DNA from: Spinacia oleracea | Lineage: Eukaryota > Streptophyta > Magnoliopsida > Caryophyllales > Amaranthaceae | Direction of reading: 5' to 3' | DNA length: 64,000 nucleotides | NCBI RefSeq assembly: GCF_020520425.1 | Contig: NC_079487.1 | Location: 133,074,385 to 133,138,384 of the forward strand | Shown: piece by piece, positions 18,469 to 51,392 of the stretch | Layout of the letters: every line of letters starts with the position of its first letter | Position numbering within the stretch: position 1 is the stretch's first letter | Made by a program: the position numbers and the translations under genes | Notes under the pieces: generated by a model | Databases searched by the model: none | What the model was told of the DNA's origin: nothing | What the model saw: only the letters and a program-made list of their open reading frames with translations

Positions 18469-20731
18469 TTAGGCATGAACTGGTGTGTTCTCTTCTGTTG
18501 GTACTGACTTTGTCTTTCTACTTCTTTCATTTCTGCTACCTTCAGCGAATTTCATGCTCGCCTCGTGGAGTCCTTGCTCTTGTTCCTTTGAATCCCATTC
18601 CCTTAAGTAGTACTCTTCTTCTGTAAAGTTTTCTTTAGGGCCGCAGAAGAGACCTCCCCATTGTGGGAAATATATGGAAGTTATGCCAAGGCTGCATGCT
18701 ATGATCATAATTCCCATGTATGTTATTCCCTTCTCTGTTGTGTATTCTGAGCCTCTGAAGAAAATTACTTGGGTTATGAGCGCGCCCACGTTTCCACCAG
18801 CTCCTGTCATGCCAGAAACAACTCCCATTGATCTGAAAATGAAATGAAAAATCACTTGAGTTATAACTTATAAGTGGGTAACTTGTAACTGGTAAGTAGA
18901 GATGGCCAATGAGTGGGATCGGGTGGGTAATGGGTGAATTTGGTGAGTCGTGGGTCGAGGATAGTAGACAAACGATATGAACAATATAGGTTAGGATGGG
19001 TCGGGTTATGGGTTGTGTCGAGGAAAATGGACACAATACATGTTGGGTCATGGGTTGATCGAGTTGGGTTGAATTGGTGGGTTTAGATGACGGGTATGGG
19101 GGGGGGGGGTTGATGTTGGTTGAGCGGGTTGGGTGGGTTTGAAGCTTTGTTTTTGGGGATAATGTGGGTTGTGCGGATCTAGTGGGCTTGAACGGGTCAG
19201 ATGGATTTTGATGATTATTTAAGCGTACAAAAATTTACAACATTCACATGAACTAAATATTATTTTTATATTATTGATCTACTCACCTAAATATAGTTAA
19301 TGTATAATTTAAATTATGATGGTAGGTTGGGTGGGTCAAAGGGTCTGATGGCTTGTATTTTGTGGATTCAGTTGGGTTTGGTGGGTCAGGTGTGCCGTAG
19401 CGGGTTATATCTGGTGGAAATGGGTTGTGTTGGAAAAAAAGATATTCAGGTTGGGCGGGTTGTATCATGGTTCTGAGTGAGACCGACCCATGTGATCTGC
19501 TGTGTCAGACTCGGCCTACTTGCCATCTCTACTTGTAAGGAGTAGTCAGAAATTTAAAATTATAAAGCTAAGTGAAAGTTTACCTTCTGGAGATAAAAGG
19601 AACAACCCCAAATGTAAGTCCTTCAGACGCTTGAACAAACACAGAGAAGATAATCATCACTGCAATCGACGCACTTAATGTATCAATCAATCCCAGAGCA
19701 ATGCACAATACACCACTTAAAGTCTGCACAATCCACCAACTCCACAATCTTCCCCTCATCCCGAACTTTGTAGCCATGAAATCTGATAACCCACCACCTA
19801 TAGGCCTAGAGAATAGATTCACCATCCCAAAACTAGCCGCAATAATTCCTGAAATATTAAGGTTCAGATTAAACCTGTCATAGAAGTAGTACGCAATGAT
19901 GTTGTTTACTGCTAACTCCACCCCGAAACAGAACCCATAACCCAAAGCAGTGATCCAGCTCCTGTAATTGGTCATTCCATGGTACAAAACCTTTGACGCG
20001 CTATCCTTGTACATGTCACCAGACTTCTGCAACTGGTGGAAATTCCCGTCTGGCAAATCTTGCCCGAAAAGCATCACTGCAAATGCTGATGTCATTTGGA
20101 GTATAGCAGGTATAAAGAAAGCAATCCTCCATGCCGAGAACGGTGTTGCCCTTGTTTTAAGTATAATGCTGTAAACAAGAGGCATAACAAACTGGGCAAC
20201 ACCGCCGCCTAGGTTCCCCCACCCGGCCGCCTGCCCGTTAGCCATACCCACAACTCGTGGAGAAAACATGGAGCTCATCCAGTACTGAGTTGACACAAAA
20301 GTAGCCAAAGCAAACCCGGTGAAAAACCGCATAAGAAAAAACCCTGTTGCTGAGTCTGCAACAGCAGATAAGTACACTGCAGGTGCAGTGAGGAGGGTGA
20401 GGGTTGCAGAGGCTAGTCGAGGACCGACTAAGTCACAGGCGGCACCCATTGCAACACGTGCGAATACTGCACCGGAAACTGATGCAACCCCTGCATTACC
20501 AATATCATTTGCTGTCAGGTTAAGGTTGTCACGAATGATGGGAAGCAGAGGTGGTGCTGCAAATGTGGATAAAAAACAGGCGAAAAATTGTATCCAACAT
20601 AGATGAAATGCTCGCATATGAGGCTTTGCTACTGAAAATAGTGGAAAGTTTATGGATTTATTCTCTGAATCCACTGGTAGAGCGAACTTTTTTTGTTTAC
20701 ACTCACTCTCTATGTCTAGTGATTCCATCAC
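18469..20731 (-). CDS. NRT2: High-affinity nitrate transporter NRT2, copy 3
   Basis: Same family and membrane role as its neighbours. Exons 20731-19584 and 18832-18469 join to 1512 nt, 503 aa if the first ATG is used (an adjacent second Met is also possible). The N-terminus reads MMESLDIESECKQKKFALPV and differs from copies 1 and 2. The porter signature [10 protein letters not shown] and the SGMTGAGGN block are intact, and the tail ends in ENTPVHA. The intron is 751 nt, against 121 and 84 in copies 1 and 2. Of this, 643 nt is a hAT-like insertion plus its target duplication, leaving an ancestral intron of about 108 nt. Splice sites remain GT-AG, phase 2, so the gene should still be expressed. 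Confidence 0.95.
18897..19531. mobile_element. hAT-like non-autonomous element inside the NRT2 copy 3 intron
   Basis: Termini TAGAGATGGC and GCCATCTCTA are perfect inverted repeats. The flanking 8-mers CTGGTAAG (18889-18896) and CTTGTAAG (19532-19539) differ at one base, as expected for an 8-bp hAT target duplication. The 635-bp interior is a degenerate run of GTGGGT/GGGTTG words with few ordinary sequences and no transposase. Confidence 0.85.
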
Positions 20732-23520
20732 TCAACTTTTTCTTTGTTTCTGCTAATGTTTGGCGACTTCTTTGTAGCTAAATATACAGTGCCACTATAC
20801 TTAGCTAATTAGAGTAGATGCAAAATTATTTTTATGTTATGGAGTGTTCTTCTACTGAGGTTTTATAGTGCGAAACTGCCTACCGAAAAATAATGTTAAG
20901 GACATGGATGTAGCTGTTCTTGTGACTCTTATCTAGTTCGAAGGGGAAAGAATCCTCAAAAAAAATTCGCCGAGTCTCATTATTCCCGATCGTGAATCCG
21001 AGATTTATTGAGATTTTTTTAATATATAGTATATTCTGGTATGATGTTTCTTGTAGGGTGGTTAGATTAATTAATTATCTGTCTGTATTTTTGTGGAAGG
21101 CTAATTATATCATACAGCTTAAGTTTAGGGGTTCGACTTCTATCATTTAAATATGTTCATAGAATATTCCAATTGTGAGGTTAAAGTAAAGTAATTAGCG
21201 GTTTTAAATAGAGTAATTTTGTTAGATTTGGTTCATGTTAATATCAATGTCTAATTGTCTGTGGAATGTTCTTCAATGCCACAAGTTTCCATTTCTAGTT
21301 ATGTAAATGGAGTTGTGAAAGACCCTTGATTGGGGAACAAGCGTAAATATTTATTTTCCTTTGATTCCAAATTACACATTTGATTAGAGCGTGCCTCATT
21401 CTCTAACGGGCCATGTTTAGAACGGGCCAAGAGAAAGTCGTGTTGGGCTAGTACCTCTCTTCCATAAATGAGGCATGTGAACAACTCGTCCTATGTGTTG
21501 CGTTGGGCTGGATCACGCTGCTCTAGCGGGCTACACAAGTTTTTATGTTAATTACTCACAAAATATCTGTCGACGTGCAGGTCAGCCCGTTGTGCTCGTA
21601 CCAAATTTCTAACATGACATCAATACATGCACAACCTATGGCCATCGACATGCTCATGCCATGTTGGGTTTACAGCAAGCTTGTTTCATGTAGTACCAAC
21701 TTCGTTTCCAAGCCCGTATGCTGACCAGACCCCTGCACTTCTACATTTGATTATTAATATCTTACAAAATAAATTATGAGTTATCCTTGAGGTTTGAAAT
21801 AACACAAGTAATGTGTTTGTTGTTCGTCCTTCTTCCTAACAAATGTTCATTGTATTTGGTGTTCATCGTGGTGACTCGTGAGATATATATCCGTCCATAT
21901 TAACCAGAAATTACTTAATTTTATCATTAAAGAATTACTGTAACATTGTAGTAAGTGATTTATGAAATTTCACGATCAATAGTACATTTTTTTTTTTTGA
22001 GTTGAAACGACTCCCCATTTCTTGTAGATAAATGTACGTCTACAAACAATTAGATCATTAAGAAGACTTGAAAGTTAGACGTGTTTAGAGGTTGCTATAT
22101 TAGTATATTCTTAAATAAATTACTTGGTTGGAATATTTCCATCATTCATGGCATGTGCTGAAATTGAGAACCCGAATGTTCTGCAATCAAGCTAACCTGG
22201 AGGAATCAATTTCATAAGATTCAAGTAATCATGGAGAAGCTAGGTCAATAAACCATGTTACTTATCACTAAATCACTAATCCCTTATCAGTTGACTTTTT
22301 AACAGGTGTGTTTAGGTTGTTGTTTCGGATAATACACTTCACTCTATATGTTACGGAGTATATCGAAGTTTCCTTATCCATTTTCAGGTTGAATTTAATC
22401 AATAATTCTTATCAAAACTTCAAAAGTGACGTATTGAAAGAATTTAAAGTACGATTCTAACAATATGAACTAATTTTAAATTTTTAATCCAAATTTAAGC
22501 ATTATGGAGAATGATTTCAAATATCAATCATTAGGTTCTCTAAATGGGTGCATTAGTAGAAAAATTAAAGGAGCTTTGTGTTTTGGGATTTGCCACCTCA
22601 TCATGGAAGGTAATAATTTGTGCGTCATCAATGTAATAGGCAATGGAAAATTCATTCTTATACTTCCGTCTTCATTAACCATTGTTATTATAAAGCAAAT
22701 CAAACTGCGGATTTTAGGCCCAATCTTGCTCGCTTTGGCTTCTCCAATAACATCCATTTGGCCAACTTCTTGTAACAATGAGTTACTTATGTTGCTCCTC
22801 AGTTAAAGAAAGGTCTAGTTTTGATTTGAAATAACAACTTTGTGAAAGATGAGGTATTTAACAAATACATTAGATACCCGTAATTTTCCAAGTTATAAAA
22901 AGATATGCATAGTATTAAACTTATTTTTCTAACTTGGTCGGAACTTTTCTAATGTAATTTGGTTTAGTTGATCCTAAATCAGCAGAATAAAACATAACTA
23001 TTCCTTTTTTTTTTAGGAGGAAAGATATATTGCCTCAACCATCACGATTTCTTCATTCCATTATTTACGGGTTAGACACTTAAGAGTAGAGGGGAGCCGG
23101 GATGGGTGTGGGGATCTTTCATCCCTTGGGCTAAGCCACCTCACTTTGGGGTAAGGGTACTCTTGGAAATGAAATTTAAAGTGTCTAGTCTGCTAATTAA
23201 TCCGGATTTAGTGAACTTGATATGGGTTTAGGCCTAGTTAGGACAGTTTGTCACTTTATCTTGCCCAAAAAAACCCGGCAAAATTGTGTTTCAGTAATTT
23301 CCCATTTTCAATCGTGCATGTTCTCATCAATCACCTGCACAGTGCAGTAGTGCACACAGAGAGTCCCAGCTGCAGCCACGACGTGCCCACGTCTGACTCT
23401 GAGCCGGTAACCAGTCATCTTGTCATGTCAGGTATTAAATTCTTGGTTTTTCCTTTAATTTTGAACATCAATTGAATTTGATTAATGTGTTTTTCTTGTT
23501 TCATGTTTGCTTTATGTGTG

Positions 23521-23681
23521 GTTTATTTTCCTCTTCAAAATCGACCAAGTGTTGTAATCTGTGGAACCTAAAACTAAAGAACACATTGCAATGATTGATT
23601 TTATGTACAGTTTATTTTTCTCTTCAAAATCGACCAAGTGTTGTAATCTGTGGAACCTAAAACTCAAGAACACATTGCAAA
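23521..23681. repeat. Two-copy tandem duplication, 89-bp period
   Basis: A block of about 71 bp (word CTTCAAAATCGACCAAGTGT) occurs at 23521-23591 and 23610-23681, nearly identical. It is a recent local duplication. Confidence 0.85.
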
Positions 23682-24310
23682 GAATTTGACAAGTTGAAAT
23701 TCATAGAAATTGAATGAATTTATGGATCTTTTATTGATATGAAATACAATACTGTAGTATTAGCGGTTTTAAATTCTGAATTTGGAAGATTTTGAGTTGA
23801 AATTAAAGGGTCCGGAAATTTGGAAGATTTTTATTTGGATTTCAATTAGATTGTGTGGATTTAAAATGGGGATTTTTTTGGGTAGGGAAGGAGCCTACCG
23901 CACCGGAACCTCACAACTCACAAGGATCAACCCAGTCAAAGGGTTTAACTGAATTTTGAGTTCTGAACTTTAGTTGCCTGGTGAGTTGTGATTAAAGATT
24001 GGAATTATAACTGTATCATTGCAAATTTGCAAAGTCACCATGTGTATAGATGAGAAGATGACATACATTAGGTTTTGGCTGAATTCTGATTACCTCTAAT
24101 AATGTAATGTCATTACTCTTGGGTATTGTGGAAGCTAATCTCAAAAAATGTTGCAATTTACTCTAAATACTTCTTTACATGTGGCTTTACAAGTACATAT
24201 ATGCACATTTGCTTGTTAAAACTCCTAACTCGAACCCATTTGTAAGAATACATCCCACACCTCTCTCCCCTACCAAAATACCGAGTATGGTTCAAGATTA
24301 TTGAGTTGTG

Positions 24311-24650
24311 GAGACGAAAATTGACGTGTTGCATAAGGATTTCAGATCCTTGTGCGAATTTGTACTGCTCGGCATGGGTATTTAACAATAGGCGAAAAGT
24401 ATAAGTAGCATAGGAAGATACTAAGATAGGCTTTCATTATATTACCAAATAGTGTAACTAATTAAGAGGATAAGAGGCTAAATGACTGTTCTTGCCTGGA
24501 GGCGAAATTGATCTGTATTGCATAAGGATTTCAGACCCTTATGTGAGTGTCAAACTATTTGACATGGTATTTTACATAATACGAAGAGTATAAGTACCGT
24601 AGACTTTCAACACATCATCAGATAGTGTAACAAATAAAGAAGCTAAGGGC
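24311..24650. repeat. Diverged two-copy tandem duplication near the NRT2 copy 4 3' end
   Basis: Two blocks of about 170 bp, starting near 24311 and 24498, share GTTGCATAAGGATTTCAGA / GTATTGCATAAGGATTTCAG, AGTATAAGTA and AGTGTAAC words in the same order. The copies are considerably diverged. Confidence 0.65.
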
Positions 24651-24663
24651 AGTATATTAGACA

Positions 24664-26881
24664 TTACACAGGCTTGCTTGCTGGGGGTGCAGAGACTGCA
24701 CATTGATCTTTTTTGCTTCTTTCACTCTTGCTACTTTCCGCAAACCTCAAACTTGCCTGATGATGTCCTTCCTGCTTCTCCTTTGAATCCCATTCCTCTT
24801 TATAATAGTCATCTTCTGAAAATTCTGATTTAGGACCACAAAACATACCTCCCCACTGTGGGAAGTATATGGCAGATATGGGAAGAGTACATGCTACAAT
24901 CATAGCGCCCATATAAGTTATTCCCCTTTCTGTTGTGTATTGAGATCCTTTGAAGAATATCAATTGAGTTAAGACCGCACCCACATTTCCACCGGCTCCT
25001 GTCATACCAGAAATCACACCCAATGCTCTGACATTGATAAAACAGACAGTGTTTAGGTTCAAAAACATATTTTCCTGTAAGCCTACTGGTATGCATTATA
25101 AACTCATTTTACCTACTTTTTTTCTTGAGAACGATCTCGAATATCTTTCCCCCCTATCCTGAACTTATAAAGCTTCAAATGTCTTGGCTTAGTAGTTTAT
25201 TACCCATCATGTTCAAGATTGCATATATCTTTATGTTATTCTCTCATATGTGTTCTTGGATACTGTGGCTTATGATTGATTTATCCATGTGATGTTTTGG
25301 TGAGAATTATTCAAAAATCCTTTCTAAATTACCTCTTTGTAGAGCTTCATGCTTGATAAAAAAATGATTATGACTGATTTTTCGTTCTACTCGATCTTAT
25401 TCTGCATGCTTTCCCTCGATCTTGTATCTTAGGAAGAGCCAAAATGTGTTTCGTTTAATGCAGGATGTTCTACTTTCTATCATTTGCGTAGGGGGACTAG
25501 GTAAATTAACTAGGATAACTACTTCCTACATCGGTTCCATTTTGTGGCAAGTTATTGTTAACCAAACAACTGCATATGTTTCTACTGTGGCCGAACTTTA
25601 ACCTCCTATGTTAGCTGTGTATTTACATGCACATGCCAACCAAACAACCACTAAGATAAATGGTTTGCAGGAAACAATGATAAACTGCAAGACATAAGTT
25701 GGAAAAAACTACCTTCTGGAGACAAAAGGAACAACCCCAAATGCAAGGCCACAGGCTGCTTGAACAAACACAGAGAAGACAAGCATCACTGCAATTGATC
25801 CACTTAAAGAGTTCATCAATCCAAGAAGAATGCATAATAATCCACCTACAGTCTGGATAATCCACCAGCCCCAGAGTCTTCCCCTCATTCCGAACTTCTT
25901 TGCTAGAAGATCTGACACCAATCCACCTCCTGGCCTGGCAAAAAAATTAGCCAGACCAAAACAAGCTGCTATAAGCCCTGCTGTATGAAGATTGAGATTG
26001 AATCGATCAAAAAAGTACTCAGCAATGATATTATCCACTGTTAACTCCACCCCGAAACAGTACCCGTAACACAGAGCAGTAATCCATCCCCTGTAATTGG
26101 TGAGTCCATGATATACAACCTTTGAAAACTTATCTTTATGCTTTGTACCTGACTTATGCAACTGCTGGAAATTACCGTCAGGCATGTCTTGTCCGAATAT
26201 CAACACTGCAAATGCCAACACAGTCTGTAAAACAGCAGGAATGAAGAATGCTATTCTCCATGCTGTAAAATTTGCAGATCCCATCCTAAGAATGATAGTG
26301 TACACAAGAGGCATGATCATCTGGGTTGCTCCACCTCCAAGGTTGCCCCACCCGGCTGCAATACCGTTAGCCCGGCCAACTACTGGTGAAGAAAACATGG
26401 AACTCATCCAGAATTGGGTTGATACAAAAGTGGCTAAAGAAAAGCCTGTGAAAAACCGGACTAGCAAAAAGGCGGTGGGTGACTCTGCTATAGCAGATAG
26501 GTAAACTGCTGGTGCAGTGAGGAGGGTGAGTGCTGCAGAAGCAACTCGAGGCCCAACTAAATCACAGGCGGTTCCCATGGCTAACCGAGCAAACACAGCA
26601 CCGGAAACTGATGCAATTCCTGCATTACCAATATCAGTAGCAGTAAGATTAAGATTGTCGCGGATGATAGGAAGAAGAGGTGGAGCAGCAAAGGTTGAAA
26701 GAAAGCAGGCAAAGAATTGAAGCCAAGATAGATGAAATGCGCGCATATGAGGCTTTGCTACTGATAATAAGTGAATGGTTGTAGCCTTGTGCTCTGCATC
26801 AACTGGAAGAGTAAAGTTTTTTGTTTCAAACTCTTTCATAGTTTCAGTTGATGCCATCATAATTTTTGATACTTTCGCCAA
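24664..26881 (-). CDS. NRT2: High-affinity nitrate transporter NRT2, copy 4 (most diverged)
   Basis: Exons 26881-25713 and 25027-24664 join to 1533 nt, 510 aa, with a 685-nt phase-2 GT-AG intron at the same VSR-R codon (here followed by ALGVISG). The [10 protein letters not shown] signature and SGMTGAGGN block are present. It is clearly more diverged than copies 1-3 (for example [10 protein letters not shown] for [18 protein letters not shown] for NIIAYYFY, tail ending ASKPV). The start is uncertain: the first Met gives 510 aa, but Met8/Met9 (MMAS...) align better with the MAS start of copy 2. The intron shows no clear insertion boundaries. It is probably the oldest member of the array, possibly with a different expression pattern. 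Confidence 0.94.
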
Positions 26882-30369: not shown

Positions 30370-30623
30370 AATATTGAACTCCTTTTTTTTTTTTTTTTTT
30401 TCCGCTATGGTCATTCCCTCTTAACTTTCTATTACACTTGTTCATTTTTCACAATAAAATCTCTCATAAGTCATAACAGAGAAATTAGAGCACAAACGAT
30501 AGTCAGTCACAAAGTTAGTGTTTTCAATTTCCACAAAACTTGCTTGGTTAATAGAGTATATTGTTAGGTGTAGCTCATATTTTTCTTTTCTTTTTTATTT
30601 AAATGACAAGGATATGTAGTAAT

Positions 30624-31014
30624 TAGACCTGGTTATTTGACAGGGTAGTCCAATGGATATAGGGTTAGGGTCAAGTTAATAGGGCTTTTATTGGGCATGA
30701 CTCTTATTGGACAGGGCATTTATTGGACAGGGTCATTATAGGGTCAAATTTATACTACAATTATTTTGAAAATTAAAATAGTAATGATACAAAAAATTAC
30801 GTGTATAGCTTCGTATTCACTTGTACTTGCGCATGACTCTTTTGTTTTTCATTTTTCATTGCTCGTTTATTGACCCGCCCACTAATGACCCACTATTGAC
30901 CCCGACCCGCTTTTGACCCGCCTATTATCGACCCGCTAAAAATGACCCTTTCAATACCCGACCCTTTTTTGACCCGCACCGACCCTGATTCGACCCGCCC
31001 GATAACCAGGTCTA
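30624..31014. mobile_element. hAT-like element with 8-bp TSD and GACCCG-word interior
   Basis: Termini TAGACCTGGTTAT and ATAACCAGGTCTA are perfect inverted repeats, flanked by identical 8-mers GTAGTAAT (30616-30623 and 31015-31022). The 391-bp interior consists of GGACAGGGTxATTxTxGG words in the left half and GACCCGxxxxTGACC words in the right half. No transposase. The adjacent 31023-31185 has similar GGGTC/GGGCC words without clean ends and may be an older relic. Confidence 0.9.
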
Positions 31015-31276
31015 GTAGTAATATAGCCCGTAATTTGATATTGACCTGATCAGAATACGAGTCGGGTCGAGTTGTGGACTGGTCATGGCTTAAAAATTAT
31101 GTCATTATGTCAGGATGGGCCAAATCTTGGGCCGAATTTTCATGCCCAAAACCTATTTTGGGCCAAAATAGCAGGATATAATACTTATATTTATTAAACT
31201 TTCTTAAATTATCCTTAACAATACATTAATAATTTAATTCAATAGGTACTAATTGTACCACTACTAGTAGTGGTAA

Positions 31277-31976
31277 CTAGTAATACGTACTAGTAACCTT
31301 CTTGAATACAAAGCCAGAGAAGGAGAGAGGATTATGAATGGGTACAAGAGTTAACCACTTTAAGTCCAAACCCGGCGGCCCGGGTGCAACAGCATCTAAC
31401 TGTCGACACTCCTCACCGCCGCTCCGACGGTTGCTAGCACTAGCAGGAACAGGCGGTAAGACGGAACAATACACAAATTTGTATGATCCCGGTCTAGACG
31501 ACGACACTTGCTCAATCTTGAACCAGTTGTTGAAGGTGGCGGCGTCACCCGGTTTTCCGATAACTCCATTGGTAGTTACGTAGAATATTAAGCCAGTTGT
31601 AGTACCCAACTGCCACACCCCTTGGTTTCCGCAATCGGGATTTGGGCCGAAAAGCAATGTTGACGTCTGAACCTTGAGTGATGTTTCTCTGTGAAGTGTC
31701 TGCAGGGTAGAAATTTACAGGGCTGCCTTGTTCAATCCAGCTCTTGTATTGACCTACGTAGAAAGGACAAATGCCGTCGTATAGATCGGGCCCAGACATT
31801 AACCCGCCACGGCCCGCTGACCCACTGACCGAGGTGAGGACGTAGTATTGTGAGCCTGCTTCAACTGGGTTCCCATCCACGTCTAGGACTACCGAGTCCG
31901 CGGCCGTGACGGTGGAAAGAGAGAGAATGAGGAGGATGATTGCTGCGGCTGATGGAAAGAGAATGTGATGTCCCAT
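31277..31976 (-). pseudogene. Kunitz-type protease inhibitor, copy 1, 1-nt frameshift
   Basis: Intronless Kunitz (STI) family gene. It has a signal peptide of about 25 residues, the family signature (VVLDVDGNPVEAGSQYYVL), then GGLMSGPD, CPFYVGQ and SDVNIAF. At 31650-31653 there are four A on the plus strand where the sister copies have three, which shifts the frame. The continuation is in another frame: GxNPDCGNQGVWQL, the VYC region, ECRQLDA and the C-terminal GFVFKKV, ending 31277. Both halves are otherwise well conserved. It is either a recent pseudogene or a homopolymer sequencing error. Without the shift it would be a normal inhibitor of about 230 aa acting against serine proteases or a related target. 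Confidence 0.88.
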
Positions 31977-33264
31977 TGTTGCTCTTTGCAGATCTATATT
32001 ACTCGGTATATACTGAGTGGATTTGTACTGTTCTTGAATTGATCGATAGATAAAATGAGTGGTATGGGACTATAGGTGAGATTTGCAATGGATAACTACT
32101 TCTTGACTTCTTGTAATACGTGTTTAGGGGGCGTTTGATTGGGGTAATAATCAAAGGGAAAGGGAATCAAATGATATCATTCTCTTTGTTGTTGTTTGTT
32201 AGACCTATTTAATCATTCCCTTTACCTTTTTCATTTTTGAGTTTACCCTAAAACCCTCTACACTCATTCCCCACCCCCCAGACTTTTCCATTCCCTTTAC
32301 CCCTTTCACTTCTCCAGCCCCTATCTCCCTCCTCTTAACACTAGATCTTCAACCCACAACCATTCTTGCCACCTGCAAAACCGTCCATCGCCACTCATTC
32401 TTCGCCACCTGCTCCGGCTTCCTCCACCACCTCCGTCCATCGACCCTCTCTCCGCCATCCACCGGAAAGAATTGACTCTGATTCTCCGGCGAATCTATCC
32501 GACAGTGTTGATGATTTCGTCAACATTCAAAATCCGGCGAATGAGGTATCACATTCGTCAATTCACGGCAAAAGGCTCTAATTTGATCGCAATTGGTGGT
32601 GATGAATTGATGATAGGTCTGCTGATGGAGGAGAAAGAATTAGTGGAAGGGAAAGGGAGAGTGAAGGTGACGGTAAAATCCAATTCAAGAAATGTTGTTG
32701 TTTTGTCATGCAACAATGACAACCACGAAATTTATCTGTGCACGGAATTGGAGTTGCTAATTCAATGGGATGATAACCCAAACAATATTTTAAATCAAAG
32801 GGAATTATTCCCATTCTCTTAAGAAAATTCCTAAAGAAAATTCTTTTTATTCTTTAGGTTTGATTCCTAAAGAAAATTTGATTCCTTTATTTTTTTTATA
32901 TTTTAAATAAATAATAAACATTTTGGTTTTTGATTCCTTTTTTTTTTTTTTATGTTTTAAATAAATACGAAGTAATAAACATTTTGGTTCTCTAATAAAA
33001 TAAGAAACCTAAAAGGTTAAAACAAAATACGTTGTACATGGAAAGTAAAAAGGCACGGAGGGAACAATATCACGGGCTTTGGGCTGCACATACATCTCAA
33101 TTGTTTCTTTGGGCCGAACTGTGTAGGAAATTACATGCACAATTGCACATGCACCTTTAATATTATCATGGGCTTTATGTCAAAAAAAATATACGAAGTA
33201 TATATTATCAGGGGCTCCCAGCTTAATTCCATGCTCTCTTTTGGTATTAAGTTATTAACAACTA
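31977..33264. other. Upstream of Kunitz copy 1, with a possible MITE-like insert
   Basis: A stretch from about 32128 (GGGGGCGTTTGATTGGGGTA) to about 32885 has a typical MITE-like left end and repeated words AATCAAAGGGAA/TTCCCTTT, but no clean right end. Inside it 32366-32581 is an open, Pro/Ser-rich stretch with codon-like composition that could be captured gene sequence. No domain is recognised. Nothing else supportable. Confidence 0.35.
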
Positions 33265-33742
33265 CCCAAATTCTTATATGAGACTATCCTCACCATCAAC
33301 TAATGGTGAGATCAGTTCACACTTACTTCTATAATTTAGACATGTTATTTTTTTTTATAATTTTAGAGGAGGTATTTTTTTTAGTTTAGGTATGTTACTT
33401 CTATAGTTTATACATGTTACTTTTTTTATACGGAGTAGTTTTAGGGGAGATACCTTCTTAACTTAGATATGTTACTTCTATATTTTAGACATGTTACTTT
33501 TTTTTATATAATTTTAGAGGAAGTACTTTTTTTAGTTTAGGTATGTTACTTCTATAGTTTAGACATGTTACTTTTTTTTATATATAATTTTAGAGGAGGT
33601 ACTTTTTTAGTTTAGTTATGTTACTTCTATAGTTTAGATCTGTTACTTTTTTTTATATAGTTTTAGAGGAGGTACGCTATTGGTTTCGCGCTCGTCACAC
33701 CATCAAGTTGATGGTGTGACTGGTCTCACAGGAGACGCGCTG
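33265..33742. mobile_element. Hairpin-ended element with internal minisatellite, copy A (Mutator-like TSD)
   Basis: 478 bp bounded by perfect 9-bp direct repeats TAACAACTA (33256-33264 and 33743-33751). The left end starts CCCAAATTCTTATATGAGAC and has a small hairpin CTCACCATCAACTAATGGTGAG. The right end has a long hairpin with 13-bp arms (GTCACACCATCAA, loop of 1, TTGATGGTGTGAC) before GGTCTCACAGGAGACGCGCT. Between them are about five units of about 75 bp (ACATGTTACTTTTTTT, TTTTAGAGGAGGTA, TATGTTACTTCTATAGTTTA). The ends are not simple inverted repeats. A 9-bp duplication is typical of Mutator-like elements; the assignment is an inference. Confidence 0.8.
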
Positions 33743-33751
33743 TAACAACTA

Positions 33752-35598: not shown

Positions 35599-35672
35599 TA
35601 TTATTGTTTGGTTTATATTTAGGGTTGTTGGTTTTTGAGTTGGTGCATGGAAATGGTTTGGGTAGGATGGCC

Positions 35673-35680
35673 TTTTATAG
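35673..35680 (-). promoter_or_regulatory. TATA box of Kunitz copy 2
   Basis: CTATAAAA on the minus strand, 75 bp upstream of the ATG, inside a GGATGGCCTTTTATAGTAC block that is also conserved upstream of Kunitz copy 3 (about 49852-49870). Confidence 0.75.
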
Positions 35681-35815
35681 TACAACAACTGTGTACGTGT
35701 CTAGTAATATGATGGAAATGATGTAAAAAAAAGTTCTCTAATATGGACAAGTAGGATAAGAAAATATTTTTACGGTTGCCAAAGAAACCATTCATCTAAT
35801 GAGGAAGTCTTTGTC

Positions 35816-36936: not shown

Positions 36937-37205
36937 CACTACAAAAAATTGTACCATTAACGACGGGAAATCCCATCACTAAAGGCCAATAATCGTTGAT
37001 TAACGACGGTATTTCCTGTCGCGAACTCGTCATAAAAGGGGGTCATCATTAATGGAAAATCTCTTCGTTAACACATCGTAAAAGACATTTGTGACGGTTG
37101 TTCCCGTCTTTGTTTGGTTGTTAGCTCCGTCACAAAAGGCTTTTGCTACGCGATTTTTGACCCATCGTTATTAGGTTGTCATTAAAGATACAAATTCTTA
37201 TAGTG
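36937..37205. mobile_element. CACTA-type MITE, copy A (269 bp)
   Basis: Ends CACTACAAAAAATTGTA and GATACAAATTCTTATAGTG, flanked by the 3-bp duplication CTA. The interior carries ACGACGGG / CCCGTCG-type words in both orientations, shared with the other copies in this window. No transposase. Confidence 0.9.
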
Positions 37206-37384
37206 CTACTATCAAGCTACTAAGCCTAGTACTATACTATATTACGCACTTAGTCTAAGAGAAAACTAGAAAATGATTTACTCCATATGTTTGTTGATGG
37301 ATCTCTTTTGCTCGATTTATTGTTTGCTATTTACAGCGCTTCCAGCCCCTTTGTCTGTTGGAGGGAAATAGAGATGGGGTTATC

Positions 37385-37736
37385 GAAAGATGGACGTGGA
37401 CCGGGCCGATCCGAGGCCTGATCCGACCCGCTATGAAAAAAGCCCTATCTGACACGGGCACGAAAAAAGCACGGTTTAGCACGAGCACGAGTAGGCGTGG
37501 GCCATGGGTCGGGCTCGGACCATTTTTTTGGAAATGTACGGTAAGGCACGACACGACTCAACCCCGCACGATAAAACACGCTAAATTTAGTAAAATTAGG
37601 CTTAGACACGCGGTCCGGCCCAGCCTGGCCCCTTGGGCCTAGACCCTGTTTTGAACTTTTCAGCCCGACCCGTCCTGGCACGGTGGAGAGGGGACCTAAC
37701 ATTGGCCCGACCCGTTTTGGCCCACTGCCATCTTTA
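37385..37736. mobile_element. hAT-like element with 8-bp TSD and GGxCCGACCCG-word interior
   Basis: Ends GAAAGATGG and CCATCTTTA (first base changed from the expected T), flanked by identical 8-mers GGGTTATC at 37377-37384 and 37737-37744. The 352-bp interior is GC-rich, made of GGGCCGAxCC/GGCACGA words in both orientations, and gives spurious open frames on both strands. The homologous upstream DNA of Kunitz copy 3 (about 50520) lacks it. Confidence 0.88.
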
Positions 37737-37941
37737 GGGTTATCTCTATAATATTTGTCATAAGAGTTATGTATTGACAAACGTGAAAATTTGGAGGTTG
37801 TTTTTTGGCATATTAGATATGTGTGGAAACACACATATCAACTAAAAGACAAATAGCTAAAAGACAAAAAAGGAAGTACCATTCATGTTAAAAAAAGTAT
37901 CATTCTGTAAAAAAAAAGTACCATTTTTGTTTAAAAATGTA

Positions 37942-39351: not shown

Positions 39352-39838
39352 GCAAAAACGGCATATTAATTCTGTACATAATCCAAAAAACACGTGAGAG
39401 GAATGCAGCTTCAATAATTCGTTCCTCAAAGACAAGGATTAAGGACCGCCAGTGATAGATGTGAGTCATGCGACAACTCATATAAATAGCCAGCCCCACT
39501 AATTTGTTTCTATTCGTTATCTTGAATTCATCCAAGCTAATGGAGGACCATTAAATAATTTAAATTGGTTAGTGTACTATTATTCATTATCTTCCATATA
39601 TATTCATCCAACCAAGCTAGCCTTAGTAAGGAGTAAGGACCGCCATTGATGCGACTTCTCTTACAAATCGAAGGACAGCTCCTCTAATTTAAGTAGCCTT
39701 CATTATCTCCTATCAGTTCATCATGGAGTAGCTAACTATGGACCACCAACGCCATTGATGATTGATCGTATACAACTTCGCTTACAGAGGAGTGAGGACC
39801 ATTCAATAATTTAATTTGGTTACTGTACTAATGTACTA
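39352..39838. repeat. Unit of the duplicated Kunitz-block repeat
   Basis: Matches 41280-41580, 54140-54560 and 60060-60790 (AATGCAGCTTCAATAATTC, AGGACCGCCATTGATGCGAC, GCTAACTATGGACCACCAAC). Non-coding. It provides the empty site for the Stowaway at 60301. Confidence 0.8.
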
Positions 39839-40093
39839 CTTCCTCCGTTTCGGAAAGTTCTTTACGCTTAGAAATATGTGTCCAAAATATGAAAACTTTG
39901 ACCGTAAATTCTCACTATTATATACATCAAAACGTTACATGTAAGATCTTGTTAGATTGGTCTCGGTATATATTTTCAGAATATCAACTTTTTATATTTT
40001 TTTCACATACAAAATTGGATATATTAGTAGTTAAATATTGCATTGGAGTCCGTGCAAATAGTAACTGTAAAGAACTTTCTGAAACGGAGGTAG
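39839..40093. mobile_element. Stowaway-like MITE (255 bp, TA target)
   Basis: Ends CTTCCTCCGTTTC and GAAACGGAGGTAG, flanked by TA. It lies in reverse orientation to the family copies at 12175 and 43356. Its uninterrupted GTTACATGTAAGATCTTGTT is the exact empty site of the hAT element at 43512. Confidence 0.92.
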
Positions 40094-40800
40094 TATGTAT
40101 TACTCCGATTCATTATCTTCCATATATATTCTAATATTCATCAACCAAGCTAGGCAGCTAGCTAACTACCGCCAACGCCATTGATGCGTTCACGGAATAC
40201 TACGTAATTACGTATTCCCTCTGAACCTAAATGTTTTTCCCCGTTTGTCACTTTACGCGGTTATTAAGGAAAAAGAAACATTGTAAGATTAACTATTATT
40301 AATGTAGTTTTATGGGGAATTGTTGCTTTTTTTTATTCCTTTTTCACAAGAAAATAAAATAGTTGAGGCCAATAGAATTTGAGGAATAAAATGTCAACTC
40401 ATTAATCCATCCAAACTTAAACCAACCAATGAGATTACAAAGTTTTTTATTGATAAACCAATAAAATTACAAAGTTAAAATTACAAGAAAGAGATTAGAA
40501 AGGAAAGAAAATAAATGGGAAGATCATTTTGTGACACTTTAAAAGGAAATGGGAAAAACATTTAAATTCGAATGGAGTATATCTTAGCTTATTAATTAAT
40601 GTGTAACGAAATACGGAGTAGTATATTAATTAGAATGAAAAATTACCAAATGAACCAAGCAAGTAATGAAGATTGATCGAAATGAAATATAATTAACGAC
40701 AAACAAATTTCATACTAAAAATATCATTGATTGATATATACCGATATACGTAGTAGAAAAACAAAATAGACAAATATTAAATCAAGATTGGGCATCGCCG

Positions 40801-42446: not shown

Positions 42447-43212
42447 CTAGATTAGGTCCCGTGCACGCACGGTTATTTGAAAATTATTAATTGACCATCT
42501 TTTTTAACTGAAATATTTATCCCTTAAATCTATTGCGTAATTACTAAATCTCGAACATACTCATTTTATCATATAATATACAATTTTCGCTCTATTACGT
42601 ATTACGAAGTATATATTTTATATGTTTAATATGATGATTTGACCAAATTAAATACTCCGTATTTGATATGCTTAATATGAATAAAGTATTGAGTAAGAAT
42701 GTTTTTTATTATTGACATGACTATATGACTAAATATTATCAAAATTGTCTAATAATGTCATATTTAATAATCCTATAATTTTTTCTATGTATAACCATCA
42801 CTACAAGAATTTGTATCTTTAACGACAACCTAATTACGACGGGTCAAAAATCCCGTCGCAAAAGGCTTTTGCGACGGGGCTAACAACCAAACAATGACGG
42901 GAATAACCGTCGCAAATGTCTTTTACGACGGGTTTACGACGGATTTACGACGGGATTTTCTATTAACGACGGCCCCCTTTTATGACGGGTTCGCGACAGG
43001 AAATCCCGTCGTTAATCAACGATTATTGACCTTTCGCGACGGGATTTTCCGTCGTTAATAGTACAATTTCTTGTAGTGCATTTATATAAAAGGAGAGAAA
43101 ATAAAAATAGAATAAAGTAAAAAAAATTAGGAAAGGGTTTTTGGCGGGAAAAAATCGCACCAGGAATTGACACATGTCACTCCTGGTGTCTCTTTTAGTA
43201 TATAGTAATAGA
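42447..43212 (-). mobile_element. Helitron-like element (minus strand) with a CACTA MITE inside
   Basis: On the minus strand it starts TCTATTACTATATACTAAAA (43212 downward) and ends with a hairpin CCGTGCGTGCACGG followed by GACCTAATCTAG and a flanking T, as Helitrons do. Removing the nested CACTA MITE and its duplication leaves about 483 bp, close to the 475 bp of the related element at 62298. No Rep/helicase gene, so it is non-autonomous. Confidence 0.82.
42799..43078. mobile_element. CACTA-type MITE, copy B (280 bp)
   Basis: Ends CACTACAAGAATTTGTATC and GTACAATTTCTTGTAGTG, flanked by CAT on both sides. It lies inside the Helitron-like element and is in reverse orientation to copies A, C and D. 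Confidence 0.93.
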
Positions 43213-43355: not shown

Positions 43356-44496
43356 CTACCTCCGTTTCAAAAAGATCTTTACAGTTACTATTTACACGGA
43401 TTCCAATGCAATATTTAACTACTAATATATCTAATATTGTATGTGAAAAAATTATAAAAATTTGATATTATGAAAATACATCCCGAGACCAATCTAACAA
43501 GATCTTACATGTAGGGGTGTAAATTGGATGGACTGGATTGGACTTTGCCAAGTCCAAATCCAATCCAAAATTTTTTGGACTTGGATAATTGAGTCCAAGT
43601 TCGATCCAAACTTTTTTCGAGTCCGATCCAATCCGATCCATAAAAAAATTATTGAGTCCGAATCCAGTCCAATCCGATCCAATCCAATTTATTTTTTGAA
43701 AAAAAAAATGATTTAAGTTTAATTTTTTAATTTTTTTTTTTTAACTCAAACGGTTCGAAAATAAATGTAAATAATTCTGTTACCGGGTAACTTTTCTAAC
43801 ACATAAAATAAAATACTCCGTACACGAGTATGAAATAGTGGGTATTAAATGATTTAACACCTATACTATAAGTCACTCCTTTATAAAGGAAAAATAAATA
43901 GCCATTAAGCAATAGATATAATTGTAAATAACAATATGTTATACACATTAAACACTTAGCCAAAAAAAGGTTTCAGTTCTTAAAAAAACATAACTTTAAA
44001 TATATTAAAACTCAATAATCAACCATCACAGCCGACGAGAGAAAGCGGAAGAGAAAGAGGTTGACATGATATTTTTTGGGTTATGAGTTTTATATGGAGT
44101 GTAATATTTTGTTGTTTTTTGTTCCCCATAGTAAATAAGGCCCAAAAATCACATATTTCACAATAGTTTTTAAATTACAAATATTTATCTATAAATAAAA
44201 TCTTAAAACTTTGGACTTAATTGGATTTTTGGACTCCAAAAGGTTGAGTCCAAGTCCAGTCCAAAAATAATTGGATTTGGTAATTTGAGTCCGAGTCCGA
44301 TCCAAAAAATTTCAAGTCCGATCCAGTCCGACAAATTTGGACTGGACTGGATTGGACTTTGGACTTTTCTCAATCCACTTACACCCCTACTTACATGTAA
44401 CGTTTTGATGTATATAATGGTGAGAATTTACGGTCAAAGTTTTTATAATTTGGACACATTTTCCAAAGCGTAAAGAACTTTCTGAAACGGAGGTAG
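43356..44496. mobile_element. Stowaway-like MITE interrupted by a hAT-like element
   Basis: Outer ends CTACCTCCGTTTCAAAAAG and CTTTCTGAAACGGAGGTAG, flanked by TA. Removing the 878-bp insert and one 8-bp duplication leaves 255 bp, the length of the intact copies at 12175 (256) and 39839 (255). Confidence 0.95.
43512..44389. mobile_element. hAT-like element with 8-bp TSD and GGATTGGACT-word interior
   Basis: Termini TAGGGGTGTAA and TTACACCCCTA, flanked by identical CTTACATG at 43504-43511 and 44390-44397. The outer 170-200 bp on each side are packed with GGATTGGACT / AGTCCAATCC words in both orientations. The central 500 bp are ordinary AT-rich DNA. No transposase. Confidence 0.93.
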
Positions 44497-44580: not shown

Positions 44581-46440
44581 GTGCCTGAAAGCCCTGACTT
44601 AGGTATTTACTTAGGATTCCCCTTGACCGATAAAAGACCGACTGCAAGCCAAGTTAGCCACATAGCTAGGAAAATTCGCAGTAAGTTGACTACATGGAAG
44701 GCTAATTGCCTTTCCAAGGCGGGGAGACTTGTACTAATCAAGTCAACTCTCTCCTCCATTGCCAACTATAGTATGCAATCCTTAGCTTTGCCAAAAAAAA
44801 TCCTCAATGATATAGACAGTCTTTGTGCAAACTTTTTATGGGACTCCAATGCTGAAAATCGTAGAACTCATCTTGTGTCTTGGGATAGAGTGTGTGCCCC
44901 GTCTGCCTTAGGTGGCCTAGGAGTGAGGAAAGCCACGATTCTAAACAAACTTGCAATGATCAAACTGTGTTGGAGACTTAATAATTCTAAAAATCTGGCT
45001 GCAACCCTAATTAAAGAAAAATACATAGCAAATAGGTGCTACCCAAAGAGCTTTAAACTGGGGTCCCATGTTTGGCAAGATGTGGGCAAAGGGTGGTTTT
45101 ATTATTCTAATCTGTCGGTTTGGTGTATTGGCAATGGGGAACACATTAATCTGTGGGAGGATAACTGGACCGGGAAGGGAAAATTAAGAGACATCATCCA
45201 TGGTCCTCTAATAGAGAATGAGAGCAACCTTACTGTGAGTAATATAATTGTTAATAATGCATGGTGTCTTGATAACCTCTCTGTGCCCATTCCCCCTCAT
45301 CTTCACCAGTGGATCCAGGCTATCCCAATTACGGCCAAAGGGTGTGACTTTCCGGTGTGTTCCTTGGGGGAGGGGAAGTTCTTTGACTCTAAATCTGGCT
45401 ACTCCCTCCTATGGGAAAAAGATCTCCAAAATCTGCAGGGGAAAAGTGGGGATTGGGCAATCCCGTGGAAAGTGGAATGTACCCCTAAACTTCAAATATT
45501 TCTGTGGCTAATTATGTGGGGGAGAATTCCTTGTGCGGCCCATTTGGCCCATAGACACATTATTCCTAACCCTAACTGCTCGTTTTGCCCAAGTATTGAA
45601 GAAGATATGAACCACTTGTTTAGGGACTGTCCTAGGGCAACAGAATTTTGGGACGAGACTAGTAAGGACAACCATCACAATCTAGGATCCTCCCTTTCCT
45701 TCAAAGAGTGGTTTGAGAGCAACATAAATAGAAAAGATCCACCTAATCATGCTTCGAGCCCCCTGTTTCAGTGTGGAGGAAAACTCTTTGGCTTGCTAAG
45801 GAGTTCTCTACTGCTGCCTCTATTATAAGAAAAAAACCCAAATCTGTCGTCTTGGAACTGGTTACTTCTAACCTTCATGTCCAGGTTGATGCGTCATTTT
45901 GTTAAACATCTCTTGCAGTAGGTTATGCAGCAATATGCAGGTACAAAAATGGGCTATGGAAAGAGGCTATGACGGGCAAAACCACGGCAACAGATGCATT
46001 AAGTGCAGAATCGCTGGCGATATTCCATACTCTAAAGTGGTGTAGTGATAACAACTGGAATAATATCACAATTTCATCGGATTGTGAAAGAGCATTGCTA
46101 GGAATCAATAACGAAGACCACCCAAAGGACAAGATGACTAATATTTATTCAATGTGCAGGGAGTACCTCGGGAGAATTCAATCAGGGTCCCTAAGGAGCG
46201 TGCCGAGACAAGGAGTGAAGGATGCGGATCATGTGGCTAGGAAAGCAAGGCTGTTAAACTGCCCCCCCTTTAATTATGTAAACATTAACCCCCCAGTAGA
46301 TGTTTATGCTAGTATTTGCAAAGACAATGATGTTATTTGTGTAGGCCCTTCATCTGTCAGTGATGGAGCGGCGGGTAACGATAACCCGTATTTCTGTAAT
46401 TTCGTAGGTTAATCTAATGCATGGTACTCTATTCTAACCA
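44581..46440 (+). mobile_element. 5'-truncated LINE ORF2 (RT C-terminus, zinc finger, RNase H), decayed
   Basis: 44581-45828 is open for 415 codons and matches the region after the reverse transcriptase core of plant L1-like ORF2 (LGFPLTDKRPTASQVSHIAR, KIRSKLTTWKANCLSKAGR, LGVRKATILNKLAMIKLCWR). The zf-RVT segment follows (WKVECTPKLQIFLWLIMWGR; CSFC...HLFRDC). A frameshift near 45800 then leads into an RNase H domain (VDAS at about 45887, AESLA, SSDCERA, VKDADHVARKA to 46412), itself broken by a stop at 45903-45905. A poly(A) tract at 46440-46455 ends the copy. The RT active site is missing, so it is inactive. It lies about 80 bp beyond the Stowaway/hAT nest. Confidence 0.92.
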
Positions 46441-47042: not shown

Positions 47043-47061
47043 AAAAAGCTCCACTAACTAG

Positions 47062-49020: not shown

Positions 49021-49779
49021 CTAGTAGCTACTACTGGCAGTAGTAGTACTAGCAGTAGTAGTAGTAGTAGTGACCTTCTTGAATACAAAACCAAAGAAGG
49101 GAAGAGGGTTATCAATTGGTACAAGACTTAACATCGACAAATCCCAAGGGCCGGGTAGAGTAGCATCCAACTGTTGACAATACTCAGTAGGAACAACAGA
49201 TTCAGGACCAGTACGACGACTATCAGGAACAACATGTACAGGTTCAGGACCAGGTTTAGGTACTGCGAAACAATACACTATCCTATATGAATTAGATTTA
49301 GGAAACGGTAGTTTCTCGATCTTGAACCAGTTGGTGAAGGTTTCAGCACCGGGGTTTCCGATTTCTCCATTGGTAGTTATGTAGAATACCCCAAGCTCAT
49401 TTGAACTTAGCTGCCACACCCCTTGGTTCCTGCACATGGCGCTTAGCCCGAAAGCAATGTTGACGTCTGAACTTAGTGTGATGTTTTTCTGTGAAAGGTC
49501 GGCAGGGTAGAAACTTACGGGGCTGCCTCGATTATTCCAGCTCCTATGTTGACCTACGTATAAAGGGCAAATGCCACCCAAGGGTACAGCGTTTAAGCCG
49601 CCACGGCCTGCTCCCCTGGATCCCGAAGTGAGGACGTAGTATTGTGAGCCTGCTTCTAATGGGTTACCATCGATGTCAACGACTACGGAGTCGGCGGCCG
49701 TGGCCGTGGCCGTGGCAGGAGAGAGAAAAAGGAGGGTTAGGAAAATGGTTGCAGCTGGAAGAAGAAGGTGATTAGCCAT
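49021..49779 (-). CDS. Kunitz-type protease inhibitor, copy 3 (intact)
   Basis: Intronless, 252 aa. The signal peptide MANHLLLPAATIFLTLLFLS has an alanine-threonine run before ADSVVVD. The Kunitz signature VVVDIDGNPLEAGSQYYVL is followed by the four-cysteine pattern (ICPLYVGQ, MCRNQGVWQL, VYCFAVP, EYCQQLD). Compared with copy 2 the proline-rich insert after VYCFAVP is longer (PGPEPVHVVPDSRRTGPES) and the C-terminus extends into a Thr/Ala/Ser run encoded by an AGT/AGC-type microsatellite at 49024-49075 on the plus strand. It shares its promoter block and CTATAAAA with copy 2. A role as secreted or vacuolar inhibitor is inferred; the target protease is unknown. Confidence 0.94.
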   Translation of the reverse strand: MANHLLLPAATIFLTLLFLSPATATATAADSVVVDIDGNPLEAGSQYYVLTSGSRGAGRGGLNAVPLGGICPLYVGQHRSWNNRGSPVSFYPADLSQKNITLSSDVNIAFGLSAMCRNQGVWQLSSNELGVFYITTNGEIGNPGAETFTNWFKIEKLPFPKSNSYRIVYCFAVPKPGPEPVHVVPDSRRTGPESVVPTEYCQQLDATLPGPWDLSMLSLVPIDNPLPFFGFVFKKVTTTTTTASTTTASSSY

Positions 49780-49869: not shown

Positions 49870-50543
49870 AGAACTGTGTACGTGTCTGGTAACATGATGG
49901 AAATGATGTAAAACAAAAATAAAGGTACGTTCTCTAATACGGACAAGTAGGATAAGAAGGTATTTTTTAGGTAATTAAATGTCCTCCACTCAAATCACTT
50001 ATTGAGTTATTTCATCATCTTAGTAAGGTACTTCCTCGGTTTCATACGGAGTAACATTTTCAGATTTATTGTTCATATTTGGAGTATCGTTTACCATTCA
50101 TATTTAATTACTACGGATTGAGTATTTATAACTATAAATGTTAATTGTTAATGTTCAAAGTATATATGGTATTGGTGACCGCACAAAGTGCAATAATATG
50201 AAGACTATTATTATGAAATAGAGAGAGTACATTGAAAATCAAAATGTATTTGCCTACAGAGTAATACCCCCTCCTTTCCAAAATTGTATTGATGTTTTCT
50301 ATTTCAAGCGTCCCAAATTTATAGTAATGTTTTTTTTTTTGGCATTATTTTTTCCAATTTTCATACACTATATTTCAATTTTGGGGCAGAGAGAGTATTT
50401 GGTTATTTGAGATGTACATAGATAATTGTAACTCCTCTCTATTTGAGATGTTGTTGATGCTTCCAAGTTCCAACCCCTTTGTTTGTTGGAGGGAAATTGT
50501 GGAGAGATTGGGGGTGTGTGTGTGTTATCTCTATGACTGTCGT

Positions 50544-51392
50544 CATGGACGGACCTATGTGTCCCCCAAGGGGTCCAAAGGGACGACCCCCATTATTTTC
50601 AAAAAAATTTGTTAAACTTAACTGGTGTTGGGGTAATTAATTGCACTTTACGTAATTTAAATATATATAATTAAGTTACAATTATGACAATTAAATACCT
50701 TTGGCATGGTGGTTGCTTGACTAGTGTTTTATGTAGGCAGTCTGGGTTCGAATCCCTAAGAGGTTATTAAACATGATTTTTTAATTTCATAGTTTTTTGT
50801 TTTTCATTTTTCCTTGGTAAGTCGTTTTTTCTTCCATCACTTTTTATTTTTAATTTTGTTGTTCTATAATAATTCATGATTTTTATTTACAAAAATACAA
50901 AAAAATAATAATGTTATTTTTTCCTTCAAAAGATTTTGTAATTTCTATAATATATATACTTCTAGTAATATATTTTTAATACTCTACTTTAATAGACTTA
51001 TAATTGTCTGTTACTTTGAAATTTGTAGATGTCTAATTGATTACTTCAATTATATTCATATATAGATTTATAATGCCCCACAAGCTAATGTCTTTGTGTG
51101 TTATTTGTTCAGTGACAACTATTGTAATAAAGTAAATTTCATTCAAAGTATGAAAATATTATTTTTTACATTTTAAATTGATATCGCGCCAAGTTAGTGT
51201 TGTAATTTGGACTAGGTATTGAGTTTTACTGTTATAAAAATCCAAAATTAAAGTTCCTTAATTTTCCACATATTTTATTACGACGTTTATAATATTTGGA
51301 CAATTCCCCTTTCAACTTTAACAACCCACTAAAAAGAAAGTAAATCATAATTTTTTTGGACCCCCAAATATAAATTCCTGGGTCCGCCCCTG
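50544..51392. mobile_element. hAT-like element with CAGGGGCGGACC-type ends and 8-bp TSD
   Basis: The right end GGGTCCGCCCCTG and the left end CATGGACGGACC (two changes) are inverted; flanking 8-mers ACTGTCGT at 50536-50543 and 51393-51400 are identical. 849 bp, AT-rich interior, no transposase. Near 50705-50755 there is a tRNA-like GGCATGGTGG...GGGTTCGAATCCC pair (A/B-box spacing) that may be a SINE relic. The matching site upstream of Kunitz copy 2 (about 37745-37765) is uninterrupted. Confidence 0.88.

Follow-up and report, generated by a model that had tools for sequence, protein, structure and literature searches.

We analyzed a 64,000-nucleotide stretch of the Spinacia oleracea genome (G000:C1:133074385-133138384), referred to here in its entirety as the window, in which an initial annotation had proposed a group of five hAT-like elements, four of them filled with short repeated words. 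We designate these elements W1 (18897), W2 (30624), W3 (37385), W4 (43512) and W5 (50544), and we describe their families, their words and the relationship between the words and hAT transposases. Their ends and duplications were found exactly where they had been placed: an 8-bp target-site duplication is present in all five, with a 7/8 match in W1 and 8/8 in W2 to W5. The features are as follows (window positions).

18889..18896, unstranded: left target duplication of W1, CTGGTAAG
18897..19531, + strand: W1, a 635-bp hAT-type nonautonomous element with ends TAGAGATGGC on both sides
19532..19539, unstranded: right target duplication of W1, CTTGTAAG, one mismatch (7/8)
30616..30623, unstranded: left target duplication of W2, GTAGTAAT
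30624..31014, + strand: W2, a 391-bp hAT-type element with ends TAGACCTGGTTAT
30643..30744, + strand: left word array of W2, 5 GGGT, on the + strand only
30873..30996, - strand: right word array of W2, 12 GGGT on the - strand only (ACCC on +)
31015..31022, unstranded: right target duplication of W2, GTAGTAAT
37377..37384, unstranded: left target duplication of W3, GGGTTATC
37385..37736, + strand: W3, a 352-bp hAT-type element with ends GAAAGATGG/TAAAGATGG, (T)AAAGATGG
37737..37744, unstranded: right target duplication of W3, GGGTTATC
43504..43511, unstranded: left target duplication of W4, CTTACATG
43512..44389, + strand: W4, an 878-bp hAT-type element with ends TAGGGGTGTAA
43512..43691, + strand: left word arm of W4, GGATT/GGACT/GGATC and complements (approximate; alignment positions 1-180)
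44209..44389, + strand: right word arm of W4, words as in the left arm (approximate; alignment positions 698-876)
44390..44397, unstranded: right target duplication of W4, CTTACATG
50536..50543, unstranded: left target duplication of W5, ACTGTCGT
50544..51392, + strand: W5, an 849-bp element with ends CATGGACGGACC/CAGGGGCGGACC and no word array
51393..51400, unstranded: right target duplication of W5, ACTGTCGT

The Ac-type terminal inverted repeat of hAT elements has the form YAGNNNTG, and ends of this form are present on both sides of W1, W2 and W4. Relatives of W3 show TAAAGATGG, one base off the TAG form. W5 has the ends CAGGGGCGG/CATGGGCGG; the CAGGGGCGGA end, like the 8-bp duplication, is consistent with Tip100-type hAT elements. 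The window was scanned blindly for 9-bp inverted ends (at most one mismatch) combined with a duplication of at least 7/8. This returned 15 pairs, compared with 6 to 13 in each of 10 first-order Markov simulations, so the scan total alone hardly discriminates. Pairs starting with TAG or CAG numbered three in the window (W1, W2 and W4) and none in all 10 simulations. The scan listed W3 with the left end GAA, and W5 was absent from its list.

Empty sites were found in the window for two of the elements. When the flanks of W1 were joined, they gave a continuous match at 78% identity to two tandem paralogues (9057-9667 and 13409-13982); the match is unbroken, indicating that the W1 site is empty in both. 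W1 lies between stretches resembling coding parts of a major facilitator superfamily (MFS) gene and, by our reading, would sit in an intron of this transporter gene. W4 is nested in a repeat of approximately 260 bp that runs uninterrupted at 39830-40095 (92%) and 12173-12431 (90%). It had been anticipated that such elements would create spurious reading frames, and this is what was observed: a 138-amino-acid open reading frame (18635-19051, - strand) starts within W1 and extends out into the transporter gene.

The genome (894,210,420 bases in 242 contigs) was searched with each element, and the best 40 candidates were scored per element (of 163 for W1, 769 for W2, 973 for W3, 179 for W4 and 364 for W5). 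All five elements recur elsewhere with paired ends and with duplications at new sites, as the initial annotation had expected of genuine transposons. Duplications of W1, W3, W4 and W5 copies were scored as the best match across offsets near the expected ends. The W1 family has at least 59 matches and a consensus of about 727 bp, from which the old window copy has diverged to 75% identity. Of its 30 fetched loci, 22 are nearly complete, lacking no more than 20 bp at the left consensus end and 13 bp at the right one; copy lengths range from 565 to 1322 bp, partly as a result of nested insertions. The duplication was tested at 23 of these loci (L033, L042, L047, L051, L055, L057 and L059 were left out). 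The scored W2 candidates all cover positions 1-391 or 4-391 at 95% identity or more. Twenty fetched W2 copies differ from a 392-bp consensus at 2 to 7 positions (the window copy at 15), which points to a recent burst of a very young family; the duplication is 8/8 in 17 of them and 7/8 in 2, and one copy has a damaged end and no duplication. The best W3 candidates match at 71-80%, apart from W3 itself, and 11 of 16 fetched copies have both a duplication of at least 7/8 and at least 15/20 end bases. W4 has at least 42 matches; among 30 loci, the duplication is 8/8 at 23 and 7/8 at 5, L017 lacks one end and L030 has 6/8. Its left end occurs 78 times in the genome with at most one mismatch, and the reversed pattern occurs once. 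W5 has at least 41 matches, and all 5 fetched copies have an 8/8 duplication. None of the five elements is a head-to-tail array without transposon ends, as a satellite would be. All five are hAT-type nonautonomous transposons, each with a family elsewhere in the genome.

Several minor observations concern these families. Two W1 copies, L053 and L058, are flanked by the same 8-mers and were probably carried by a larger duplication. At L056 and L057, two more word-rich elements are nested in W1 relatives, with ends TAGACGTGTCAAAA and TAGAGCTGTCAAAA and perfect 8-bp duplications GTTTAAAC and GTTGTGAC; the one at L057 (887 bp) has GACCCGA-type words, on one strand, flanking an AT-rich stretch. Inspection by eye of the open reading frames of W1 relatives, made with no domain search, revealed no transposase. 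In one W5 copy (L086; G000:C1:101514514-101516749), about 1.38 kb separates two parts that both contain query positions 428-436, which looks like the insertion of a further element with a 9-bp duplication. The left tip of W5, CATGG (50544-50548), is identical to the bases after its right duplication (51401-51405); CATGG stands at that place in 3 of 5 fetched relatives, so chance is a likely explanation.

The word content of the elements was compared with dinucleotide shuffles by counting repeated 6-mer pairs. W2 has 200 (shuffle mean, 36; maximum, 60), W3 has 74 (mean, 28; maximum, 63) and W4 has 766 (mean, 263; maximum, 343). The proposal that the elements are word arrays holds clearly for W2, W3 and the arms of W4, but only weakly for W1. 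W5, set apart from the others in the initial annotation, has no word array (241 pairs; shuffle mean, 251). Repeated 8-mers number 244 in W4, 53 in W2, 19 in W1, 16 in W3 and 35 in W5. For the background, represented by 192 tiles of 600 bp, the median is 17; five tiles exceed W4, and all five are low-complexity or tandem. Between 17 and 38 words of the chosen patterns are spread along each of W1 to W4.

The interiors had been described as mostly one word repeated in both orientations. This is true of W3, whose words GGCACG, GGGCC and GACCCG occur in both. In W4 the words lie on both strands in both arms, but they are confined to these arms of about 180 bp, and the middle of about 520 bp is ordinary AT-rich DNA. 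It overstates W1, in which the signal is a strand bias of GTGGGT/GGGT words (26 GGGT on the + strand and 1 on the - strand). W2 carries GGGT on the + strand in its left half only and on the - strand in its right half only. A GGGTC/GACCC core is common to W1, W2 and W3, and W4 has none.

A search for the hAT dimerization domain (PF05699) gave 459 candidates, of which 150 places were scored and 39 had their 3' side read. A word array was called where the densest 250 bp held at least 100 repeated 6-mer pairs; the controls were 120 850-bp ends of loci L001-L060, that is, flanks of W1 and W4 copies. Dense word arrays were found at 25 of the 39 transposase 3' sides and in 13 of the 120 controls (Fisher P = 2e-10). 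A TAG-type end pattern, counted within the second half of the array or up to 150 bp beyond it, accompanied 17 of the 25 loci with an array, 3 of the 14 without and 7 of the 120 controls; one counted match, at L135, differs from the true end of that element. The arrays of the 25 loci form 9 classes at a cosine of at least 0.3, or 13 at 0.5, with words such as GACCCGC, GGCACG, ATCCGA, GCTCGA, ACTCGA, ACCGGA, GGATCC and CGAAGC. The transposase locus L128 has the end GCCATCTCTA in common with W1, but its words are GGATCC rather than GTGGGT.

Two of these loci proved to be full elements that match W3 and W2 in both ends and words.

G000:C1:73501338-73505363: L113, partner of W2, 4026 bp, duplication GGCTTAGC on both sides
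G000:C3:62195125-62199696: L135, partner of W3, 4572 bp, duplication GAGCAACC on both sides

L113 has the ends of W2 (TAGGCCTGGTTATTGGACAGGGT left, AACCAGGTCTA right) and the same word polarity, with GGGT on the + strand of its left arm and ACCC in its right one. Pfam, run on 543 residues of its open frame of 664 codons (stop to stop), returned zf-BED and hAT-like RNase-H matches; PF05699 lies further along the frame, beyond these residues. The word-spectrum cosine of W2 to L113, L118 and L115 is 0.70, 0.70 and 0.67; the next array reaches 0.29 and the highest of the 120 controls 0.33. A simple deletion of L113 was rejected as the origin of W2, which aligns closely with L113 only near the tips. 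L135 has the ends of W3 (TAAAGATGGC.../...GCCATCTTTA) and W3 words at both ends, with PF05699 in an open frame of 776 codons and a BED-type finger. L120 has W3 words as in L135 and a worn end. The cosine of W3 to L120 and L135 is 0.38, with 0.19 for the next array and 0.16 for the 95th percentile of the controls. Thus, two of the four word-bearing families, W2 and W3, have a transposase-bearing element that shares their ends and their words, and their membership in hAT is confirmed by such a relative. The expectation that each word set would match one transposase-bearing element, each family following a different transposase, was borne out for these two families and is in keeping with the arrays at 25 of 39 loci, but W1 and W4 were left without a partner among these 39. 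For W4, the closest array is that of L119 (cosine, 0.30; control maximum, 0.13); this candidate was rejected because its end, CTCCCCTA, differs.

W4 copies fall into a young group (L001-L013) and an old group (L015-L030), with L014 in neither. Comparison of the consensus sequences of the two groups, with the homopolymers at positions 181-260 excluded, shows 10 differences over 354 arm positions and 47 over 428 core positions (P = 7e-6); with these homopolymers included, the figures are 10/354 and 65/502 (P = 6e-8). Variants common to several old copies number 52 at the 354 arm positions and 123 at the 428 core positions. The arms of W4 have thus changed about four times more slowly than its core between the subfamilies. 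Singletons are about equally frequent in arms and core, both in young copies (44/4661, or 0.94%, versus 39/5681, or 0.69%; P = 0.15) and in old ones (133/5546, or 2.4%, versus 175/6751, or 2.6%; P = 0.52), which indicates that the arms were kept in the source lineage and not in dead copies. Slow arms together with equal mutation after insertion are as expected if the arms act in transposition.

N-terminal stretches of 17 transposases (16 fetched, plus L123) were inspected for fingers. A BED-type finger was recognized by its pattern in 11 of the 17, and a twelfth (L158) was read later; the remaining stretches begin within the protein or lack all or part of the finger. Distinct BED-type fingers accompany distinct words. 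Across 15 loci, dimerization-domain identity and word similarity are correlated (Spearman, 0.37; 1 of 2000 permutations as high), driven largely by six pairs at least 94% identical; without pairs at 90% or more, the coefficient is 0.25. In these six pairs the word cosine is 0.84-0.96, and in 11 pairs at 70-90% identity it is 0.01-0.39, a comparison that overstates word turnover because an exact 6-mer cosine is blind to degenerate similarity. An R immediately preceding the conserved His (L113, L109 and L120) goes with GGG/GGC words and an N at this position (L108, L114 and L104) with words holding CGA. This pattern, noticed post hoc among eight finger types, hints at a recognition code; the hint is weakened by the L108 array, which also contains CGGGTA and clusters with that of L109.

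Subterminal words to which the transposase binds have precedents in a few hAT elements, Ac and Hermes among them. According to PMC3260210, Ac transposase binds AAACGG subterminal repeats cooperatively, the subterminal regions of Ac/Ds are about 200 bp long, and short derivatives such as Ds1 retain only the ends and a few words. W1 to W4 resemble Ac/Ds as described there in their short inverted ends, 8-bp duplications and subterminal words. They are not Ac/Ds proper: AAACGG is nearly absent (W1, 0; W2, 0; W3, 1; W4, 1), and words of the GGGTC/GACCCGC, GGCACG and GGAYT types fill the arms or much of the element. PMC10368747 describes BED domains of Hermes that bind several subterminal repeats, with a strict geometry near the tip; W1 to W4 differ from Hermes in their 17 to 38 words of the chosen patterns.

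We consider it likely that the word arrays of the nonautonomous hAT elements W1 to W4 serve as binding sites for the transposase of the respective family, which would contact them through its N-terminal BED zinc finger. The precedents of Ac and Hermes make binding by BED fingers the most likely role of the words, and we infer that the partner transposases move the W2 and W3 elements, with the words giving specificity. In such a mechanism, several BED fingers would load onto the words beside each end, and the loaded fingers would pair the two ends and place the catalytic domain at the terminal inverted repeat, after which cut-and-paste would follow. A large number of words might serve higher affinity, capture of scarce transposase against the autonomous element, or specificity. 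We propose that the requirements in cis are limited to ends and words, so that any short DNA retaining both could multiply. We also propose that the word is particular to each transposase family, which would make families with nearly the same ends, as exemplified by W1 and L128, separable by their words.

Several observations weigh against binding by the family's own transposase. W1 has no more repeated 6-mer pairs than dinucleotide shuffles (120; mean, 109; maximum, 160), no partner for it was found among the 39 transposase loci, its best array cosine (0.32) is below that of the highest control (0.53), and in its alignment shared variants are no rarer in the word arms. No W4 partner was found among the 39 loci either, and in a by-eye comparison all 78 W4-like left ends lie at least about 11 kb from any of the 150 scored transposase places. 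A 5.7-kb stretch on C3 with W4 ends was rejected as a partner, having no open reading frame longer than 102 codons in the 2.2 kb read mid-stretch. Within the W4 arms, words changed less than spacers only as a trend, in the consensus (3/201 versus 7/153) and in variants shared among copies (24 at 190 word positions versus 28 at 165 spacer positions). W2 and L113 align at 92% over the outer 36 bp on the left and at 78% over about 45 bp on the right; further in, the words recur in a different order. W3 is closer to one control (0.40) than to its own partner, and one expected metal-binding position of the L135 finger is changed, so this copy may be inactive. The 39 loci were picked mainly for long open frames, 14 of them fall below the array threshold that 13 controls reach, the controls are unmatched for composition and some may contain other transposons or pieces of W1, and BED fingers were sought at array-bearing loci only.

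Other explanations were weighed against binding by the transposase. Pairing of the ends and 8-mers by coincidence, for which the blind scan gives some room with a total barely above the simulations, has a negligible chance of being correct: it is refuted by units that recur with new duplications of at least 7/8 (W4, 28/30; W2, 19/20; W5, 5/5; W3, 11/16; W1, 13/23) and by the empty sites of W1 and W4. The interiors might instead be simple-sequence or minisatellite expansions, produced by slippage and caught in transposons without any role. The degenerate, short-period words, the length variation of W1 copies, the failure of W1 to exceed its shuffles and the controls that reach the array threshold all fit slippage, but it does not account for W2 and W3 words that recur with the same ends in transposase-bearing elements, the excess of arrays at transposase 3' sides or the slow arms of the W4 source lineage. 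Slippage is already disfavored, and we regard it as very improbable.

It is also conceivable that the arms form stable hairpins, with conservation acting on structure rather than on words. Compared with shuffles, W4 folds far better (z = -6.3; 0 of 20 as good) and W2 somewhat better (z = -2.5; 3 of 100). A parallel is offered by hATpin elements, which are reportedly MITE (miniature inverted-repeat transposable element)-like hAT elements of several plants, including sugar beet, a relative of the host, with stable whole-element secondary structure; these too are nonautonomous plant hAT derivatives. No such gain over shuffles is seen in the folding of W1 and W3 (z = -0.38 and -0.44), and the one-stranded bias of W1 words and the single strand per arm of W2 words also argue against hairpins, which we therefore think unlikely as the explanation. 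Similarly unlikely is that the words are cis elements for a host factor, or targets of small RNAs or methylation, that spread with their families. Family-specific GC-rich arrays could attract host factors, but word identity tracks the transposase-bearing element for W2 and W3, and the precedent in Ac and Hermes is one of transposase binding.

Beyond the binding of BED fingers to words, we tentatively suggest, as a possibility about which we remain somewhat doubtful, that the hAT transposases of this genome form a dictionary in which the BED finger of each subfamily is paired with its own word, the word is copied into short derivatives, and finger and word coevolve fast. One transposase pair at 55-70% identity that reaches a word cosine of 0.86 argues against such fast turnover. 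If the suggestion is correct, coevolution would prevent families whose ends are nearly the same from mobilizing one another's elements, and the recognition code of BED fingers could be read from genome sequence. The elements are of a known kind, and the same subterminal arrangement is seen here at scale in one genome. The pairing of transposases with words makes a BED recognition code testable with many natural finger-word pairs; it would explain how short elements consisting of ends and words alone multiply, as in the case of W2, and how families with almost identical ends stay separate. A note of caution follows for annotation: what looks like a gene or a satellite in a plant genome may, if it is an array of GC-rich words, be the arm of a transposon. 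Among the matches listed (open-licence full texts; titles and abstract starts), there was no description of these elements and no genome-wide pairing of hAT transposases with words, and novelty in print is not established.

The neighborhood of the elements contains two groups of tandem genes. MFS transporter genes (PF07690) occupy 8929-26881; there are at least four of them, 75-86% alike, and one contains W1. By our reading they are nitrate-transporter-like, and Pfam gives only MFS_1 (two genes run). Kunitz-type inhibitor genes (PF00197) lie within 31545-59403, at 34879-35688 and 49021-49779, with similar copies near 31545 and 58942. The reverse-transcriptase-associated domains zf-RVT and RVT_3 at 44581-46412, adjoining W4, are the remains of a retroelement, which we read as being of the non-LTR (long terminal repeat) type. 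An interspersed repeat of about 270-280 bp, 85-97% alike and in both orientations (36937-37205, 42799-43078, 59469-59738, 60817-61095 and 63308-63575), is probably another short transposon family. A local tandem repeat array is present at 52673-53417, and a related inverted copy, up to 90% alike, lies about 19 kb away at 33264-33744.

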